From Tritonibacter multivorans (GTDB taxonomy: Bacteria > Pseudomonadota > Alphaproteobacteria > Rhodobacterales > Rhodobacteraceae): a DNA stretch of 64,000 nt. The notes beneath the pieces were generated by a model. It saw only the letters and a list, made by a program, of their open reading frames with translations, ran no database searches and was not told where the DNA came from. The stretch lies in the NCBI RefSeq assembly GCF_001458415.1, contig NZ_CYSD01000014.1, positions 124,001 to 188,000 on the forward strand, written 5' to 3'. The first letter of the stretch is position 1; each line of letters opens with the position of its first letter. A program made the position numbers and the translations under genes. This document shows positions 2,760 to 10,562 of this stretch, in pieces.

Positions 2760-4330
2760 TTGCGTATAGAGGTGTCTAAAGGGGCGACATCCTGTGGCGA
2801 AATTTGGGGTTTCTGTCCCAAGTGAACTGCAAGGCAATGCGCGCAGCAAGCCTTTGATCTGCCCAACAGCGTTTTGGGTCAAGGTTGAGCGGAGTTCAAT
2901 TGGAACAGCGAAGGTCGGCAGTGCGGATGGGGTGGATGGCGTCTGCACCAAGCGTCGCATTTTGCGGCACACTGCAGAAGTCATCTTCTGTCAGGAAAGG
3001 AGCCCCATCATGGAAGTTACGACAATAGGATTGGATCTTGGGAAGGACGTTTTCCAAGTTCACGGTGTCACAGCTGACGGCACGGTTGCCTTCAATCGTT
3101 CGATCCGGCGGCGACAATTGCTCAAGTTCTTCGAAGCGTTGCCGCGTTGTCTGGTTGGTATTGAAGCCTGCGGATCTGCGCATCATTGGGCACGTGAGCT
3201 GACTGCGATCGGTCATGATGTACGGTTGATGCCTGCCACCTACGTTAAGCCGTATGTTAAACGCGGCAAGACAGACGCCGTTGATGCTGAGGCGATTTGC
3301 GAGGCCGTCACACGACCAACGATGCGGTTTGTCGCTGTGAAGTCGAAAGAGCAGCAGGCCCTACTGACCATCCACCGGGTGCGCCAGCTTGTCGTTCGCC
3401 AGAAGACCCAGATGTTGAATGTGATCCGTGGTCTTCTGCGTGAGTTTGGTCATGTAATCGGGAACGGACCAGTCGCCGCAATGCGCTTCATCAAGACGTT
3501 CCAGACGGATAACTGCCTGGACATGCCTGACGTGGCAAAGAGCATGCTCAAGACGCTCTGCGAACAGGTTAATGCGCTCGATGACCGGGTCACGTTTTAC
3601 GATAAACTGATCGAGTATCATTCTCGGATCGATGAACGCGCCAAACGCATTAGGACCGTTCCTGGCGTCGGCCCCATCACTGCTTCGGCCATTGTCGCAA
3701 CCATCGGCGACGGCCAACAGTTCAAGAATGGACGCGAGTTTGCTGCTTGGCTGGGACTTACGCCGCTGAACAAGTCGAGCGGTGGTAAAGAGCGCCTGGG
3801 CCGCATAAGCAAGAAGGGAGACCGATACCTTCGACGATTACTCGTGATCGGCATGACCTCTCAAGTTCAGCGTGCCCGTGGCTATCCAGAACGTGTGCAC
3901 CCTTGGATCATGCAGCTTCTTGAACGCAAACCCGTTCGCCTCGCAACGATTGCTATGGCGAACAAGGCGGCCAGGATCATTTGGGCGATCCTCACCAAAG
4001 ATACCTACTACCGCCAATCGGCGGCATAGAAGGAGCCGAGAAAACACGAATTGCAAGACGAATGCCATGATGGCACGTGCGGTCATCCGAAAACCTGAAA
4101 TCCCGTGCTTTGTCCTGAACTCTCAGGTTCGCGTCGCCGATTGGGAACAGGTTTGCGGAACCCATCAAGGCCAGCGGCAAATATCCACGCCGCGATCAAA
4201 GGCCGGACACAGGACTGTACTGACCAACCGAGCAATCAACGCATTTTTCTCTTGCAAAGCAGACGCCATCCACACAGGACAAAGCACCATTTCGCTGCAT
4301 ATGTACCAATGGCGGCTTCCAATGTGTTGT
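2760..4330 (+). mobile_element. IS110-family (IS1111 group) insertion sequence, ends not resolved
   Basis: One complete IS1111-type transposase gene (3010-4029) is flanked by about 250 bp and 300 bp of non-coding DNA that belongs to neither neighbour. The gap 2672-3009 also holds a C-rich homopolymer near 2700-2720. Elements of this family make little or no target duplication and often lack simple terminal repeats, so I could not place the ends; the limits given are approximate. IS110-family elements encode a structured guide (bridge/seek) RNA in a non-coding end, described downstream of the transposase in the IS1111 group. Within 4030-4330 a 7-bp stem AACCTGA (4092-4098)/TCAGGTT (4123-4129) is visible. 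Apart from this I see nothing in 4030-4372. Confidence 0.55.
3010..4029 (+). CDS. IS110-family transposase, IS1111 group
   Basis: A 339-residue DEDD transposase. The RuvC-like N-terminal domain shows D9 (GLDLGKDVF), E52 (GIEACGS), D89 and D92 (KTDAVDAEAI). The stretch AVTRPTMRFVAVKS is characteristic of the IS1111 group. The C-terminal transposase-20 domain has VPGVGPITASAIVATIG (helix-hairpin-helix-like) and the conserved serine region LNKSSGGKERLGRISKKGD. The start at 3010 follows an AAGGAG ribosome site and matches family N-termini (MEVTTIGLDL); the in-frame start at 2794 has no support. The gene looks intact and could be active. It lies between the permease gene and the T6SS cargo operon, a plausible mobility scar at the left border of the accessory region. 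Confidence 0.95.
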   Translation: MEVTTIGLDLGKDVFQVHGVTADGTVAFNRSIRRRQLLKFFEALPRCLVGIEACGSAHHWARELTAIGHDVRLMPATYVKPYVKRGKTDAVDAEAICEAVTRPTMRFVAVKSKEQQALLTIHRVRQLVVRQKTQMLNVIRGLLREFGHVIGNGPVAAMRFIKTFQTDNCLDMPDVAKSMLKTLCEQVNALDDRVTFYDKLIEYHSRIDERAKRIRTVPGVGPITASAIVATIGDGQQFKNGREFAAWLGLTPLNKSSGGKERLGRISKKGDRYLRRLLVIGMTSQVQRARGYPERVHPWIMQLLERKPVRLATIAMANKAARIIWAILTKDTYYRQSAA

Positions 4331-4372
4331 CAGTTGAAACAACTCCCAATCTGTAAACCACAGGAAATAGGA

Positions 4373-4663
4373 TTACCCGCCGATAAACACGTCTCCAGAC
4401 CCATTGGAGATGGAACCGCCACAGTCGATGGCATCGCCGACGCGGCCAGCGGGTTGACCATTGATGAACACGCTGCTGGATCCTGCGGCCAAAGCCCGAC
4501 CATGCGGCGGGTGTTTGGGCTTTGAATGCGCCGCAAAGGCATCGCCCTTGCGCAGAGCCTCAACGCCATTGGTAAAGACATCGCCACTCCCGGATGTTGC
4601 CGGGGTTGGTGGAAAGCCATCGTGACCTGATCCTGTATCGCCATTGCGTCCTGCTGCCGGCAT
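4373..4663 (-). CDS. PAAR-domain T6SS tip protein
   Basis: A 96-residue glycine-rich protein with the PAAR architecture: MPAAGRNGDTGSGHDGFPPT at the N-terminus, repeated SGSGDVF/SSSVFING strands, and PAGRVGDAIDCGG before the last strand. PAAR proteins form the sharp cone on the VgrG spike of a type VI secretion system and bind a metal through conserved His/Cys residues. No toxin domain is attached, so it would act as a plain tip or recruit cargo. Its ATG overlaps the previous stop as TAATG, making it the last gene of the minus-strand vgrG operon. No tss sheath or baseplate genes are in the window, so it must serve a system encoded elsewhere. Confidence 0.88.
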   Translation of the reverse strand: MPAAGRNGDTGSGHDGFPPTPATSGSGDVFTNGVEALRKGDAFAAHSKPKHPPHGRALAAGSSSVFINGQPAGRVGDAIDCGGSISNGSGDVFIGG

Positions 4664-5295
4664 TATACGCGCTCCAATGTATCAAATTCAGTATCTTTAA
4701 ATGCGGTCGACCAGGCTGTGAGGAGCTCTTGGTCCGGCTGCGGCACTTGGCGCATCTTTGCGTGCAAAAAGGCGGCGATCTCAGGCGGCGCTTTGACCAT
4801 TATTTCGCGTGGCATGTCAAACACCAGCGGCTCCTTGAGAGCTGCGAGCATGGCGCAAATTGCAATGTGCGAATTGCTGCCTGCTTCGACAATCTCGCTC
4901 AAACTATTGGCTTTGGTCAGAAGCGCGGGGTTGAGTAACCGCGCGGGCCGTTCGAATTCTGGTAGCGGTTTGAGAGGAAACCCAGACGTCTCCCAGCCCT
5001 CCCACACGTGGGAAATTTCTGCGTCTTTGCACCAAGAACAAGCGATCGCGCTATAAGCAGTCCACCCTGTTGCGGCGCTGAGAGCGCACCAGTTTTCGAT
5101 TGGCACAGCTTCAAGTCCAGATAGCAACTCTCTCGAGCTGCGGTCCAAATGTCTACGCTCATATTCCAAGTCATCCGACTTCCAAAGATCGCCCCAGCCA
5201 CGTGCCAATCTGTGCAATTTAGCCCAGATCTCAGGCAATGTTGTATCGTTGACCATGTTCGCGCCCTGCATTGGGCTATAATTTGTATGTGCCAT
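4663..5295 (-). CDS. unknown T6SS cargo-operon protein
   Basis: A 210-residue protein that I do not recognise with confidence. It is soluble, rich in Trp and Ala helices (ENWCALSAATGWTAYSAIA, SHIAICAMLAALKEP), with no signal peptide or membrane segment. The start is placed at 5295, where ATG overlaps the upstream stop as TGATG; the in-frame ATG at 5307 lies inside the upstream gene. The 3' end overlaps the PAAR start in the same way. A conserved-looking helical protein between a putative effector and PAAR could be a chaperone/adaptor, an immunity protein or a DUF6931-like T6SS accessory protein. I cannot choose between these from sequence alone. Confidence 0.7.
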   Translation of the reverse strand: MAHTNYSPMQGANMVNDTTLPEIWAKLHRLARGWGDLWKSDDLEYERRHLDRSSRELLSGLEAVPIENWCALSAATGWTAYSAIACSWCKDAEISHVWEGWETSGFPLKPLPEFERPARLLNPALLTKANSLSEIVEAGSNSHIAICAMLAALKEPLVFDMPREIMVKAPPEIAAFLHAKMRQVPQPDQELLTAWSTAFKDTEFDTLERV

Positions 5296-6239
5296 CAATG
5301 ATTCCAATCAGGCAAATCTTCAGGGCCCGCGTCTGTAAACAAGTCATCCAGGCTGTTCCACTTTTGACCGCTCGGGCGTTCGCCACCGAAAGGATTGACA
5401 CGGGGCAACGGAAGTGAGTCATCGGTATCAAAGCCGAGTATGTTTTTCTCTGACGGGTCGCGTTTTGTATGCAGGCGGTTCCATTGGGTTATGCTGTAAT
5501 CTGTTCGATAGGTGTCACGGAAAAAACCCTCTTCCTCGATCAAGAGGTCGCGGGCCTCGGGCATGAAATCCACACAACGCGTTGCACGGATCGGTCCGAC
5601 AAAGTTTCCGTCTGCATTGATTTTCACAGTGATTAGGGTGCCGCCCAGAAGATGCTGTGCGTTATAGGCAAGCTGCCCCGCCGCATACCCCATCCGATGA
5701 TGCGTATTCAGCATGATGGGCGTGTCGTTGCTGTCGATTATGAAAACTTCGGAATTCGGGAAGCCGTCTCCGCGCAACGTCGAAGTAATCTGCATTTCCA
5801 ACACATCAGGGTCGCGATCGATTGCAAAGACAATGGTGCCGCTCAAGTCCAGATAGGGCACCACGAGGTTGTTGAAGGCCCGATTGGGCGTAAAAGCGTG
5901 GTTGATTCCACGAAAGTTCCATTGGAAATTACCCGTCTGCATGCCATTTGGGGCGAAGGGGCTGGAAACAAAACTAGCATGTCCTTCAGGCTTGGTTTCA
6001 GCTTCAATGTACTCTTCTCTAGTGCCCCCCAAAAACCAAGGCGCAGTACTGGGATCGGAGTTAACATCAAATTCAGTCCATGTAGAGGTCATAAAGTCGA
6101 CTTGACCAAACGCATATATACGTGATGTCGAACTTAGACTCGCTGAGAATCCACGATTGTCGCCGTGAAAACCTAAGCCACCCAATCCGAATTTTTTATC
6201 AGGATGAAACGCTCGCGCGTGGATCACGTAGGCGCTCAT
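5295..6239 (-). CDS. putative T6SS cargo/effector protein, second copy (intact)
   Basis: A 314-residue protein without signal peptide or membrane helices. It opens with HARAFHPDKKFGLGGLGFHG followed by DNRGFSASL, a block repeated almost identically in the truncated copy at 6932-7039. The rest is beta-rich (GTIVFAIDRDPDVLEMQITS) with many Asp/Asn and aromatic residues and ends in a polar tail. No catalytic motif is recognised. Its position, directly behind a VgrG spike and its partner gene and ahead of PAAR, makes it the best candidate for the delivered protein; the conserved N-terminal block could be a delivery or recognition module. Start and stop both overlap neighbours (TAATG, TGATG). Function is unassigned. 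Confidence 0.7.
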   Translation of the reverse strand: MSAYVIHARAFHPDKKFGLGGLGFHGDNRGFSASLSSTSRIYAFGQVDFMTSTWTEFDVNSDPSTAPWFLGGTREEYIEAETKPEGHASFVSSPFAPNGMQTGNFQWNFRGINHAFTPNRAFNNLVVPYLDLSGTIVFAIDRDPDVLEMQITSTLRGDGFPNSEVFIIDSNDTPIMLNTHHRMGYAAGQLAYNAQHLLGGTLITVKINADGNFVGPIRATRCVDFMPEARDLLIEEEGFFRDTYRTDYSITQWNRLHTKRDPSEKNILGFDTDDSLPLPRVNPFGGERPSGQKWNSLDDLFTDAGPEDLPDWNH

Positions 6240-6775
6240 TATTCAATCCATTTGAAAGAGGTGCCTGTTAACAGGAAATACAAATTTGACCTAGAAACGC
6301 TTTCTACGTCGTTTTCACATCCCCCTGTCGTATCAATTTCAAACTCATTGTAATCGATAAAGCCGTCGGTACGTGTTGAGGTCCGAAGATGCCCATTTTC
6401 AAGCATTTCTCTGGTGCCAGATACTGCGGTGATGCCAGTCCCCGTTCGCTTGAAAACCGGATTTCTGCCCAACTTCCCCTCTTGCCCAGAATAAATGAAC
6501 TGCAGTCCGGCCCGCTCATAGGGTTCGGGCAGATTTATCACCACTGCATTGGGATGTGTTGGATAGATATTGTAGCTCAGAAATTCTGGCGGTTCATCAA
6601 CAGGCGGCGTGTTTTCGCCCCAGAACACCACGAACTCGCCACAGTAGCCATCCGGAAGAAAAACATGCACTTCGGGTTTGTCCGGTTTGGACGCGCGAGC
6701 CCCGTTAATGAATTGCGTACCAAGGCTGATGATCAACGCCAGGGACAGCAAGGCGAGAAAAATATTCTTGAGCAT
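6239..6775 (-). CDS. DUF6843-like anchored protein, second copy
   Basis: A 178-residue protein with an N-terminal hydrophobic segment (residues ~4-22, IFLALLSLALIISLG) that is a signal anchor or uncleaved signal, so the body is probably periplasmic. The segment VHVFLPDGYCGEFVVFWGEN resembles DUF6843-type domains. It is a paralogue of 7036-7581: the first ~107 residues are nearly identical, while the C-terminal ~70 residues differ strongly (here GITAVSGTREMLENGHLRTS, there GSMATFGTRKVLADGTITTS) though both end in LTGTSFKWIE/LTGSTFQWIE. One conserved half with one variable half, next to a presumed effector, suggests a specificity protein such as a periplasmic immunity protein. This is inference. 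Confidence 0.75.
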   Translation of the reverse strand: MLKNIFLALLSLALIISLGTQFINGARASKPDKPEVHVFLPDGYCGEFVVFWGENTPPVDEPPEFLSYNIYPTHPNAVVINLPEPYERAGLQFIYSGQEGKLGRNPVFKRTGTGITAVSGTREMLENGHLRTSTRTDGFIDYNEFEIDTTGGCENDVESVSRSNLYFLLTGTSFKWIE

Positions 6776-6931
6776 TAGTTCAAATCAATCCGTGATCCAT
6801 TGAGAGTGATATGGCTACCTTTGATGTTAATCGTTCCATCGCTTTGCGCTTGTATGAGAGTGTCGCCGCAACGAAATTCGATCTCTTCGCCGACAGTGAC
6901 CTTCAGCTTCTTTCCGACCTCTACACGTTGC
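6447..6931. repeat. 485-bp direct repeat, left copy
   Basis: This stretch matches 7253-7737 at a constant offset of 806 bp with about a dozen differences by eye. It covers the 3' tail of vgrG and the 5' two thirds of the anchored-protein gene. It begins at CGCTTGAAAACCGG and ends at CACGTTGC. It is the footprint of a tandem duplication or of recombinational import of a second cargo cassette. Confidence 0.92.
6775..6931 (-). pseudogene. detached vgrG 3' tail
   Basis: This reads as the last ~52 residues of VgrG (QRVEVGKKLKVTVGEEIEF to NGSRIDLN), almost identical to the C-terminus of the full gene at 7581. It is fused upstream to unrelated sequence and has no VgrG body. Its stop overlaps the start of the next gene exactly as the true vgrG stop does. 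It is not expected to make a functional spike. It marks the point where a second vgrG-linked cassette was joined. Confidence 0.85.
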
Positions 6932-7039
6932 TTCGAGGCTGGTCGAAAATCCGCGTTTGTCACCATGGAAGCCAAGACCGCCCATGCCAAATTTCTCGTC
7001 CGGGTGAAACGCACGTGCGTGAAGCGAATAGACCGTCAT
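6932..7039 (-). pseudogene. truncated first copy of the putative cargo gene
   Basis: Starting from an ATG at 7039 that overlaps the upstream stop by four bases (ATGA), 36 codons encode HARAFHPDEKFGMGGLGFHG followed by DKRGFSTSLEA, nearly the same as the N-terminus of the intact gene at 6239. At 6931 the sequence switches to the vgrG tail in a different frame, so the product degenerates into a basic chimera ending at 6827. I treat the open frame 6827-7051 as a broken gene. Confidence 0.8.
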
Positions 7040-7581
7040 TCCTCGATCCACTGGAAGGTTGAACCCGTCAATTCAAAGTATAGGTCTGGCGTGGGTTCTA
7101 TCACCGGTTTTGCCGGGCTTTCACATACGATCGTTGTGCCGACAGAATACTCGTCAAATTGGATCCCACCGACCGTAGACGAACTCGTCGTGATTGTACC
7201 ATCGGCCAGTACTTTTCTGGTCCCGAAGGTCGCCATAGATCCAGTGGAGGTGCGCTTGAAAACCGGATTTCTGCCCAACTTCCCCTCTTGCCCAGAATAA
7301 ATGAACTGCAGTCCGGCCCGCTCATAGGGTTCGGGCAGATTTATCACCACTGCATTGGGATGTGTTGGATAGATATTGTAGCTCAGAAATTCCGGCGGTT
7401 CATCAACAGGCGGCGTGTTTTCGCCCCAGAAGACCACGAACTCGCCACAGTAGCCATCCGGAAGAAAAACATGCACTTCGGGTTTGTCCGGTTTGGACGC
7501 GCGAGCCCCGTCAATGAATTGCGTAGCAAGGCTGGTGATCAATGCCAGGGACAGCACAGCGAGAAAAATATTCTTGAGCAT
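7036..7581 (-). CDS. DUF6843-like anchored protein, first copy
   Basis: A 181-residue protein translated from an ATG that overlaps the vgrG stop (TAATG), so it is translationally coupled to the spike gene. It has an N-terminal hydrophobic anchor (residues ~4-22), then the VHVFLPDGYCGEFVVFWGEN segment shared with its paralogue at 6239-6775. The last ~75 residues are specific to this copy and contain a Pro-rich insert (PAKPVIEPTPDLYFE). If these proteins are immunity or chaperone factors, this copy would match the now-truncated cargo gene that follows. The partner assignment is inferred from order only. Confidence 0.75.
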   Translation of the reverse strand: MLKNIFLAVLSLALITSLATQFIDGARASKPDKPEVHVFLPDGYCGEFVVFWGENTPPVDEPPEFLSYNIYPTHPNAVVINLPEPYERAGLQFIYSGQEGKLGRNPVFKRTSTGSMATFGTRKVLADGTITTSSSTVGGIQFDEYSVGTTIVCESPAKPVIEPTPDLYFELTGSTFQWIEE

Positions 7582-7737
7582 TAGTTCAAATCAATCCGTG
7601 ACCCATTGATAATGATATGGCTACCTTTGATGTTAATCGTTCCATCGCTTTGCGCTTGTATGAGAGCGTCGCCGCAACGAAATTCGATCTCCTCGCCGAC
7701 AGTGACCTTCAGCTTCTTTCCGACCTCTACACGTTGC
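7253..7737. repeat. 485-bp direct repeat, right copy
   Basis: Partner of 6447-6931 (offset 806 bp). This copy is in its native context: the 3' end of the full-length vgrG followed by the first anchored-protein gene. Repeats of this length are expected substrates for homologous recombination, which could delete 806 bp and regenerate a single-cassette arrangement. Confidence 0.92.
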
Positions 7738-9665
7738 GTCTTACCCACCGAAGTACGGCTGTTGCGGCGGGTTTGATCCATGCGATCTCTGGCAACGGTA
7801 TCTGTGCGATCATTGCCTGCTGAAATACTGACATCAGCTCCGGCATCCAAAATCGCGTTTTTGCGGGCAGACAAGTATATGGTTCCAACAGCATTCATTA
7901 TGAGATTGCCGACACCTTGCATCGCGCTTTTGCCGCGACCAATCAAGTAACCGATCTTGCGCACGCCTTCCCAATGTTTAGCAACCTCACCAGTTGCAAA
8001 AGTTTCTCGATTGGAACCGCTGACAGAGAGCGTGAAATCGCCCCCAACATGCTGCGTAGCCTGCCCCGCCACTTCGACCATACTATTGTGACCTATCGAA
8101 GTGAAATGGTTTGCATCAATACGCATGGTGGAGTTGTTTTGAATTTTCTGTGTCAGGTCCTTTTGCGCCCGCAGCATTATTTCTTCTTCGCCCGTTTGAT
8201 CTTCGAACCGTAGTTCATTAAAACCGGGGCCTTTGTGGCTTTGCGAGCGGAAAGCGGATGCTGTCTTTCGAGCTGGCAGCTCATACGGCGGGGTGTTGTG
8301 GCCGTTGTAGACACAGCCCGTCACGATCGGTTTGTCGGGATCGCCGCGCAGGTGCTCGACGATGACTTCCATGCCGATGCGGGGGATGACCATGCCGCCC
8401 CAGCCTTTGGACGCCCAGTTCTGGCTGACCCGCACCCGCATCGAATGCGCGCCGTCGAGGTCCCAGTGGTAGCGCACCAGAATGCGGCCGTGTTCGTCGC
8501 AGTCGATCTCGCCGTCGCCCACAACCACCGCCGTCTCGGGGCCCTGCACCCGCGGGGCGGGTGTGCGCCGTTCCGGCCGGTAAGGCGCGCTGTCGGGCAT
8601 CAGGACATAAGCGCCCTCATAGGGGGTCTCATCGCCGCCTGCGTCGCCTGAGCCATAGCCCTGCGCGCGAAATTGATGTTCGGCCCGCAGGCAGACAAAG
8701 CCTTGCCCCGTAGCGCCCGACACCGGATCTCCCGCAAGGGTCACCCGCCAGCCCGCGCCCAGCGAGACCACATCGCCGACCGCCTCGTGACGCGGGGCCT
8801 GGCCGCGTTCTTCGTCCAGGCGGCGGGTCACCACATGGCGGCCCTCGTCCTGGGTCAGATAGTCGCCGGGCCAGTCGTAGCTTTCCACATCGCCCTGCGG
8901 ATGCGCGGCCTCGCCCATCTGGTCAGCCTCTTGGGTCGCATGGGGAATTTTGAAGTTATACTCGGTCAGCCGCACCGCGCCGGTGGTGATCCGGGCGGCG
9001 GTTGACCATTTGCGGAAATGTTCGTCCTCGTGGCGGTGAAACCCCTCGACCCCATAAAGGGGGCGCGTGCCGCCGGGCACTTCGGGCAGCTGAAACGTCG
9101 CATCGCTCAGCACCAGCGTGTGCGAGCCAGGGGCGTGTTTCCACGACCAGCTGATGCCATGGCGCTCCAGCTGGCGGCGGATAAAATCGGCGTCGCTTTC
9201 GCCATATTGGACGGTGTATTCCAGCACCGGATAGGCGCTCGAGGTCACGATCTCCAGATGCGGATTGCCCATGGCGCCATAAGTACTCAGCACCTCTTCG
9301 ACGATTTCGATCACCGATTTATTGTGAAAGATCCGCATGTTACGCCGCAGCGAGGCGAGATGCAGCCAGGGCCGCAGCACCAGATCATAGCGAAACCCGT
9401 TCTCAAACGCGCCCCGGCTTCTGGCCTCGCAGACAATCCCGTCAAAGGCACGACGGCCCTGGGCGTGGTCGATTTCCACGGTGGCATGGGTGCCCAGAAG
9501 CGCGCTGAGATCCAGCTGATTGTTGAAAGAAAGCGCCTCAACACGCCATTCAAACGACCCCGAGATCTCCTCGCTGCCATCCATGCGCAACAGCACCAAC
9601 TGGTCCCCGCCAAGCGCCGTCACCAGCCGACCCTGACGGTCCTGCTGCGAAAAATGCCTATTCAA
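7581..9665 (-). CDS. VgrG/TssI type VI secretion spike protein
   Basis: A VgrG protein of about 695 residues. The N-terminal gp27-like part (FSQQDRQGRLVTALGGDQLV onward, with SDADFIRRQLERHGISW) is followed by a gp5/OB-fold region (VRVSQNWASKGWGGMVIPRIG, GDPDKPIVTGCVYN) and a beta-helical DUF2345-like tail with Gly/Asp/Val repeats. VgrG trimers cap the Hcp tube and carry effectors into target cells. I place the start at TTG 9665, just before the conserved N-terminus; the ATG at 9779 would add a basic, hydrophobic 38-residue extension not seen in VgrG. Base composition changes inside the gene near 8240: the spike body is GC-rich and the tail plus cargo genes are AT-richer. It heads the operon down to PAAR. 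Confidence 0.92.
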   Translation of the reverse strand: MNRHFSQQDRQGRLVTALGGDQLVLLRMDGSEEISGSFEWRVEALSFNNQLDLSALLGTHATVEIDHAQGRRAFDGIVCEARSRGAFENGFRYDLVLRPWLHLASLRRNMRIFHNKSVIEIVEEVLSTYGAMGNPHLEIVTSSAYPVLEYTVQYGESDADFIRRQLERHGISWSWKHAPGSHTLVLSDATFQLPEVPGGTRPLYGVEGFHRHEDEHFRKWSTAARITTGAVRLTEYNFKIPHATQEADQMGEAAHPQGDVESYDWPGDYLTQDEGRHVVTRRLDEERGQAPRHEAVGDVVSLGAGWRVTLAGDPVSGATGQGFVCLRAEHQFRAQGYGSGDAGGDETPYEGAYVLMPDSAPYRPERRTPAPRVQGPETAVVVGDGEIDCDEHGRILVRYHWDLDGAHSMRVRVSQNWASKGWGGMVIPRIGMEVIVEHLRGDPDKPIVTGCVYNGHNTPPYELPARKTASAFRSQSHKGPGFNELRFEDQTGEEEIMLRAQKDLTQKIQNNSTMRIDANHFTSIGHNSMVEVAGQATQHVGGDFTLSVSGSNRETFATGEVAKHWEGVRKIGYLIGRGKSAMQGVGNLIMNAVGTIYLSARKNAILDAGADVSISAGNDRTDTVARDRMDQTRRNSRTSVGKTQRVEVGKKLKVTVGEEIEFRCGDALIQAQSDGTINIKGSHIIINGSRIDLN

Positions 9666-9929
9666 AATAAAAATCCAACAAACAGTTAATGCAAGAGAGG
9701 TAGCAAGCCGAACGCCCGCACGCAAGACGTGTGTTAAGCGGTGTTGCAGCAAAGCAGCCCTAAGAACACAACGAAGCATTCAGTAAAGTGGGCTCAGACC
9801 GGACCAATGCCAGCGCGGCAACGACTGACATCGCGCGTCTCTGACACCGGTCATTCCTTCAGACTGTAGAGTCGTCCCGTCAGCGCGGTGCTGATGCTTG
9901 GGTGCGGAGGGCGGATCGGAGGGCATATT

Positions 9930-10562
9930 ATGCCACGAGTTCAACTTCCCGCAGTCACCCCCAAGCGCAAGGCTTGGAACAAAGGACGCATCATTGGTCA
10001 GAAGAGGCCGCTGTTACCAAAACAGGTCTGGGCGATCCGGGCCAGGCTCGAACTTGCGGGCTACCTACGCGATCTGGCTTTGTTCAACATCGCCATCGAC
10101 AGCAAGCTGCGTGGCTGTGATCTGGTTAAACTGGCAGTTCCTGATCTCGTCAAAGGTGACCGCGTCCGTGAACGTGTGTCGGTCATCCAGAGTATGACCA
10201 AGCGACCGGTTCAATTTGAACTGACAGAAAACACGCGCGAAACCGTGCTGGCTTGGGTCAAATCACCGGAGATGTTTGCGTGTCGGTTTATGTTTCCCAG
10301 CCGTTTCCATGATCGGCCTTACATCTCAACCCGCCAGTATCGACGGCTCGTTCGTGATTGGGTTACGGCGATCGGACTGGAGCCCAGCGGATATGGCACC
10401 CATTCGCTCCGCCGAACAAAGGCAGCGGAGATCTACCGAAAAACCGGCAATCTCCGTGCCGTTCAACTGCTGCTTGGCCACACCAAGGTCGACAGTACTG
10501 TTCGGTATCTTGACGTCGAACTCGAAGATGCCCTGAGCATCTCTGAGCGTATCGATATCTGA
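9930..10562 (+). CDS. lone tyrosine recombinase (integrase-like)
   Basis: A 210-residue protein consisting almost only of a tyrosine recombinase catalytic domain. Visible active-site residues are R61 (KLRGCDL), K91 (SMTKRPVQFEL), H158 and R161 (THSLRRTKA), H184 (LLGHTK) and the nucleophile Y193 (VRYLDV). The start at 9930 follows a GGAGGG ribosome site. Full phage integrases are 350-400 residues with an N-terminal arm-binding and core-binding domain; here the core-binding part is minimal. Such ~200-residue proteins are frequent in alphaproteobacterial plasmids and islands, with unknown substrates. No phage genes or attachment repeats were found around it. Confidence 0.88.
   Translation: MPRVQLPAVTPKRKAWNKGRIIGQKRPLLPKQVWAIRARLELAGYLRDLALFNIAIDSKLRGCDLVKLAVPDLVKGDRVRERVSVIQSMTKRPVQFELTENTRETVLAWVKSPEMFACRFMFPSRFHDRPYISTRQYRRLVRDWVTAIGLEPSGYGTHSLRRTKAAEIYRKTGNLRAVQLLLGHTKVDSTVRYLDVELEDALSISERIDI

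Follow-up and report, generated by a model that had tools for sequence, protein, structure and literature searches.

The locus described here appears to hold a displaced effector–immunity module, that is, two alleles of one toxin–immunity module stacked within a T6SS VgrG cargo cassette; judged from its sequence and from comparison with relatives, this reading is given a probability of about 0.78. The locus lies in a 64 000-nucleotide stretch of the Tritonibacter multivorans genome (the window) and runs on the minus strand in the order vgrG – X1 – start of cargo 1 – vgrG tail – X2 – cargo 2 – 214-residue protein – PAAR. In other words, it probably comprises one toxin and two immunities. Its features are as follows.

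7581..9779, minus strand: full-length vgrG of the T6SS spike, 732 aa (Pfam Phage_GPD 1.3e-74 and others; NCBIfam TIGR03361 8.6e-145)
7253..7737, minus strand: repeat copy 1, 485 bp, comprising the vgrG end and the first two thirds of X1
7036..7581, minus strand: X1, 181 aa, an intact ORF with an N-terminal hydrophobic segment (hydrophobicity 2.54 at residue 5, 15-residue window); probably an immunity protein bereft of its toxin
6932..7039, minus strand: cargo-1 stub, 36 codons (65.7% of nucleotides shared with the 5′ end of the intact cargo gene)
6926..6931, minus strand: putative illegitimate junction, the six-nucleotide word GCAACG (also at the attached vgrG end, 7732–7737)
6447..6931, minus strand: repeat copy 2, 485 bp, comprising the detached vgrG tail and the first two thirds of X2
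6775..6931, minus strand: detached vgrG tail, 51 codons and a stop (from the ORF list and the repeat alignment)
6239..6775, minus strand: X2, 178 aa, N-terminal hydrophobic segment (hydrophobicity 2.71); probably the cognate immunity protein of the 314-residue cargo
5295..6239, minus strand: intact cargo (cargo 2), 314 aa, a probable toxin (without a family name in Pfam, NCBIfam or PHROGs)
4663..5307, minus strand: 214-residue protein, possibly an accessory or adaptor (relatives in loci L007, L008, L014, L028 and L037)
4373..4663, minus strand: PAAR protein, 96 aa (Pfam PAAR_motif 1.7e-12)

The repeat, its edges and the order of events

The direct repeat, which the initial annotation had put by eye at ~97%, aligns without gaps between 6447–6931 and 7253–7737 at an offset of 806 bp, with 472 of 485 positions identical (97.3%, 13 mismatches), an identity far above chance. 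The final 140 bp of the block carry no mismatch between the copies, and identity drops sharply right behind them: the last thirds of X1 and X2 share 108 of 204 nucleotides (52.9%), and the stub matches the opening of cargo 2 at 71 of 108. Mismatches thus stand at 13/485 within the block and 133/312 outside it (Fisher p ~6e-48), such that the 806-bp unit consists of 485 bp at 97.3% and a remainder at 53–66%. Since both the 3′ third of X and the start of the cargo diverge outside the 485 bp, what is seen appears to be two alleles stacked, with a young block common to both, and the downstream cassette is no copy of the first. The earlier description of it as a second copy arising by tandem duplication is accordingly given up, its X and cargo outside the block being a different allele; plain tandem duplication as the whole story is ruled out by the divergent flanks. 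Within the block itself, 11 of the 13 mismatches fall in the first 226 bp (p 0.008), a clustering which may reflect either a mosaic or constraint.

The other anatomical points in the initial annotation stand. Cargo 1 is indeed cut after 36 codons, whereupon its reading continues into the vgrG tail, out of register with the vgrG frame (ORF 6827–7039, 70 aa), and the detached vgrG tail is present as described. Moreover, the likening of the locus to a polymorphic VgrG cargo locus with a displaced module is supported by the occurrence of a stub and an intact cargo gene within a single vgrG locus.

The arrangement would be explained if the cassette has the general form vgrG 3′ part – X – cargo – 214-residue protein – PAAR, the cargo being a toxin that rides the VgrG–PAAR spike and X its immunity protein. 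Divergent alleles of such a cassette would recombine with one homologous end, either in the vgrG core or on the side of the 214-residue protein and PAAR, and one illegitimate end, at the six-nucleotide word where codon 36 of cargo 1 meets the vgrG tail; GCAACG would then presumably have been present in the missing part of cargo 1 also. The product would be vgrG – X1 – cargo-1 stub – vgrG tail – X2 – cargo 2, which leaves a single functional toxin paired with X2, and X1 as an extra immunity gene. Whether a cassette was joined behind the first, as originally proposed, or inserted before the second is a distinction which the window fits alike.

A course in which duplication came first must be weighed against this. 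Here an 806-bp unit (vgrG tail – X – 36 cargo codons) would have been doubled via the six-nucleotide word, an incoming allele later replacing the 3′ part of X and the cargo in one of the copies. The observed gene order does follow from this junction in one step, and the repeat end inside X, with 140 bp of exact identity and then 53%, resembles a crossover point. Two events are required, however, the near-identity spans 485 bp and not 806 bp, and the stub is closer to the cargo of an uncultured member of the Rhodobacteraceae (L007; 78/108 nucleotides) than to cargo 2 (cargo 2 and the L007 cargo share 61/108 over the same stretch); we consider this course rather unlikely. That the double cassette is an artefact of assembly is hardly credible: the genome is a draft of 45 contigs, some of which end in other pieces of vgrG, but 13 sites and both flanking regions distinguish the two copies, the locus sits inside a contig of 240 728 bp (C14) and, because the new junction has just ~6 nucleotides in common, there is no repeat there for an assembler to misjoin.

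The cassette in relatives and the exchanged unit

Cargo relatives were sought, and found, in 2 of 18 genomes of the genus (its own included), 5 of 394 of the family, 5 of 390 of the order and 3 of 385 of the class, these genome sets overlapping and those of family, order and class being samples. Further searches gave 4 of 56 genomes in the genus of G310, 1 of 2 in the genus of G098, two loci among GTDB contigs and 2 of 72 556 plasmid records at E 1e-5. Single cassettes in the order vgrG – X – cargo, which the initial annotation had suggested looking for, are indeed present in relatives and on plasmids, for example at L007. All nine full-length cargo genes are immediately preceded by an X gene, and this in turn by vgrG sequence, the end of X overlapping the start of the cargo by 1–4 bases in each. 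A PAAR gene follows the cargo in seven of these nine cassettes (as judged by eye for L039 and L057); the 10-kb locus of L007 showed none, and the contig of L018, where vgrG is split into two frames, ends before one could show.

Counts of intact and lost cargo below are made over 16 loci: copies 1 and 2 of the window, L007, L018, L019, L008/L031, L030, L028, L029, L039, L057, L037, L038, L065/L069, L066/L068 and L067. Records occurring in two collections are counted once (L037 and G1056:C4, as checked; presumably also L007 and G303:C12, and L008 and G098:C23), and L065/L069 and L066/L068 are taken as one lineage each. L029 and L039, from two genomes of one genus, differ little in their genes and are not independent. 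Outside the count are two records whose X is 100% identical to that of L067, as well as L014 (unrelated cargo), G920 (L045; a weak, partial match) and the Rhs loci L044 and L056.

The extent of the exchanged unit can be judged from a complete cassette on another contig of the same genome (L014, G000:C28, 849–5449), which has an unrelated X and cargo together with a related 214-residue protein and PAAR. The vgrG genes of the window and of C28 agree in at least 83 of 90 nucleotides per block from nucleotide 91 to 1440, and in only 33–56 of 90 per block from nucleotide 1531 on; the two PAAR genes are 80% identical at the nucleotide level, and the C28 relative of the 214-residue protein is distant (37% over 134 residues). 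The G+C content of the cassette is 47–55%, as against 63% for the vgrG core and 61% for PAAR. From this comparison and the base composition, the exchanged unit therefore appears to be vgrG 3′ – X – cargo – 214-residue protein, with homology on both sides, and the 3′ third of the full-length vgrG would itself be part of the swapped cassette. A further rearrangement was observed in Nereida sp. MMG025 (L008, 6727–9561), in which a detached vgrG tail is joined to the X gene, followed by a frame-broken cargo and an intact relative of the 214-residue protein; it stands behind a gene that by eye is transposase-like and another vgrG–PAAR cassette.

X as a candidate immunity protein, and the cargo remnants beside it

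X probably is an immunity protein, because it has a hydrophobic N terminus, precedes each of the nine full-length cargo genes and also occurs without intact cargo; a membrane-anchored or periplasmic location is proposed. The X proteins form two families without a profile match to each other, in both of which the N-terminal hydrophobic segment is present, with 15-residue means of 1.5 in L007, the weakest, and 2.3–3.2 in the other ten. In L019 the segment falls near residue 51 of the open reading frame, and the Rhizobium X carries the motif LSSC, which we take to be lipobox-like. The X families track subgroups of the cargo, cargo identity being 44–73% inside the group with the X-A family (3 pairs) and 32–38% between groups (12 pairs). 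Placement of an immunity gene upstream of its toxin, as X is here, is the less common order.

The cargo is full length and open at nine of the 16 loci and lost or broken at seven; X is open at six of these seven (counting L008, where its frame is open but joined to the vgrG tail) and broken in one lineage (L066/L068). It is because of this persistence that X would be the retained, and hence immunity, part; the count, small and with the cargo as the longer target, favours X as the partner kept after cargo loss. The proposal that the 314-residue protein is the swapped and thus selected component consequently stands in part: it is likely the weapon of the module, but it changes jointly with the C-terminal third of X, and as to selection, it is mostly X that stays once cargo is lost.

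A different role for X, as a secretion partner, chaperone or co-effector that is kept or lost along with the cargo, has the gene order on its side. Adaptor genes often stand between vgrG and cargo, which is where X is found in all nine full-length cases, and a search for a named immunity domain in X gave none (eight X proteins were without a match in Pfam at E up to 10). An N-terminal hydrophobic segment is, however, unfit for a cytoplasmic adaptor, and in all 21 pairs compared it is X, not the cargo, that diverges more. Moreover, X persists on Agrobacterium and Rhizobium plasmids with no annotated vgrG or PAAR nearby, in one case near a Rap1a immunity gene, and the family of the 214-residue protein is the better accessory candidate because it recurs beside the unrelated cargo on C28. 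A partner role is on these grounds improbable. A possible membership of X in DUF6843 was also rejected, a Hymenobacter protein reaching 2.2 bits with the X-A profile, where the best of 2000 shuffles reached 8.5; the 'P-x-x-Y-x-G' look common to X and DUF6843 is not significant, and a literature search on DUF6843 was without result.

X without an intact cargo occurs on the plasmids just mentioned. In R. tumorigenes, and in A. tumefaciens LMG 305 and A. fabrum 2788, only a short cargo remnant lies behind X. On pAt1D1460 (L067, NZ_CP032928.1 93437–101838) no cargo was found beside X, the Rap1a immunity gene lies ~660 bp downstream and transposase genes lie upstream; this region looks like an immunity island. 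The X-A family, by comparison, was never found away from cargo or stub at its 4 places in 3 of 335 genomes, and was without a match in the plasmids; therefore no X-A orphan is known outside the window.

The remnants themselves have a common look. In four lineages the cargo remnant next to X breaks, or has its first stop, at codon 32–47 of about 285–335: after 36 codons in the window, ~47 in G005:C1 (L019; then an unrelated open run to 97), 43 in R. tumorigenes L069 (its sister L065 losing likeness after 21) and 32–34 in A. tumefaciens/fabrum (L066, L068). These breaks fall just behind a conserved FHPD...GDxRGFS segment. The pattern was noticed after the fact and with n = 4 lineages, and since likeness to the L007 cargo continues beyond the stop to about codon 65 in L069, and a weak alignment to codon 60 in L068, the clustering at codons 32–47 is softer than it looks. 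The broken cargo genes of L008 and L030 are full length with frame breaks, off this early-break pattern, and tblastn gave no further cargo pieces behind the remnants at convincing E-values. It is a long shot that the first few dozen cargo codons are a kept element, with a toxin–immunity family, unnamed in the libraries searched, common to VgrG cargo and Rhs tips; in that case the stub might mark a site at which toxin exchange preferentially breaks, aid X expression or act as a small spike-binding peptide. As to the N-terminal 41–50 residues serving as a module fused to other toxins, this was not seen in plasmids, where the matches are full-length genes, stubs and two records at E > 1 (Novosphingobium, Nostoc).

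The cargo family and known systems

The gene of the intact 314-residue cargo lies in the interval from vgrG to PAAR, and the genome carries T6SS genes (three matches to the sheath family PF05943); delivery of the cargo by the T6SS is predicted. Neither the cargo nor X nor the 214-residue protein has a meaningful family in Pfam, NCBIfam or PHROGs, and no cargo relatives were found in viral contigs. Profile searches of solved structures returned no matches for A6 and three only, at E 1.4, for A8, and AlphaFold models of cargo and X, built from 2- and 3-row alignments, were too poor for use (pLDDT 34 and 41). The best-conserved stretch of the cargo lies around GDGFPNxExF.

A link to a carrier of another kind comes from two Bacteroidota. 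In Chryseobacterium balustinum (L044) a tblastn match to the cargo (27% identity, E 2e-7) lies directly behind an Rhs core (TIGR03696, 1.6e-11); this tip scores 83.8 bits against the profile of seven cargo proteins, the best of its 1000 shuffles reaching 12.2, and aligns to the cargo family in hhalign at E 2.5e-21. In Hymenobacter canadensis (L056, 269–4857) a cargo match of 54.5 bits ends a protein annotated with DUF6443, in which an Rhs core is seen by eye. The domain thus occurs both as free VgrG cargo and as the C-terminal tip of another carrier, and it is therefore a polymorphic toxin by anatomy; toxicity of the 314-residue cargo is accordingly probable. In the two Bacteroidota it is fused to the Rhs core, whereas in the window it is free-standing, and neither of the gene products after the two tips is detectably related to X. 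The gene behind the L056 tip is a DUF6843 protein (35.1 bits against a cut-off of 27) with, by eye, a lipobox-like start. The L044 tip (4839–6099) is without an annotated gene, and behind it stands a 130-residue protein that is hydrophobic by eye.

The process appears to be one already known from Vibrio and the agrobacteria; novelty lies more in the toxin family, which together with the toxin-less X genes is also the more useful part. For the V. cholerae T6SS, the excerpted text of Kirchberger et al. (PMC5361080) proposes displacement through homology on one side and illegitimate joining on the other. The immunity arrays described there are alike in that an incoming module displaces the toxin of a VgrG cargo locus, the older immunity is kept and vgrG pieces of variable length travel with the module. 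They differ, on the same excerpt, in that the immunity candidates of the window precede the toxin, a toxin stub and a vgrG tail are left over, and the modules are alleles of one family with a near-identical block in common. In agrobacteria, as far as the extract of PMC8546570 goes, recombination within vgrG takes along its C-terminal part with every gene downstream, and orphan immunity genes and immunity clusters are described; the within-vgrG recombination is alike, and the window belongs to another host family. The vgrG clusters of Neisseria subflava likewise have partial vgrG genes, duplications and duplicated immunity genes in the portion of PMC10210955 consulted, but their effectors are, as far as that portion goes, different and duplication is preferred by its authors.

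What the window would add is a single locus in which repeat edge and junction are both legible, showing module displacement and the gain of an extra immunity gene, and this outside the species covered by the excerpts of PMC5361080, PMC8546570 and PMC10210955. It further links an Rhs tip domain to a VgrG cargo that stands alone, and yields immunity candidates open to testing, among them the toxin-less X genes of Agrobacterium and Rhizobium plasmids.

Parts of the locus recur elsewhere in the genome. One contig end (G000:C18:99543–99762) repeats window 4300–4519 at 100% and another (G000:C3:13221–13551) repeats the vgrG start at 93%; given such repeating ends, more cassettes may be hidden in assembly gaps. 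The vgrG cassette is itself flanked by an IS110-type transposase and a phage-integrase-family gene (window 3010–4029 and 9888–10562, from Pfam), a setting which is mobile-island-like.
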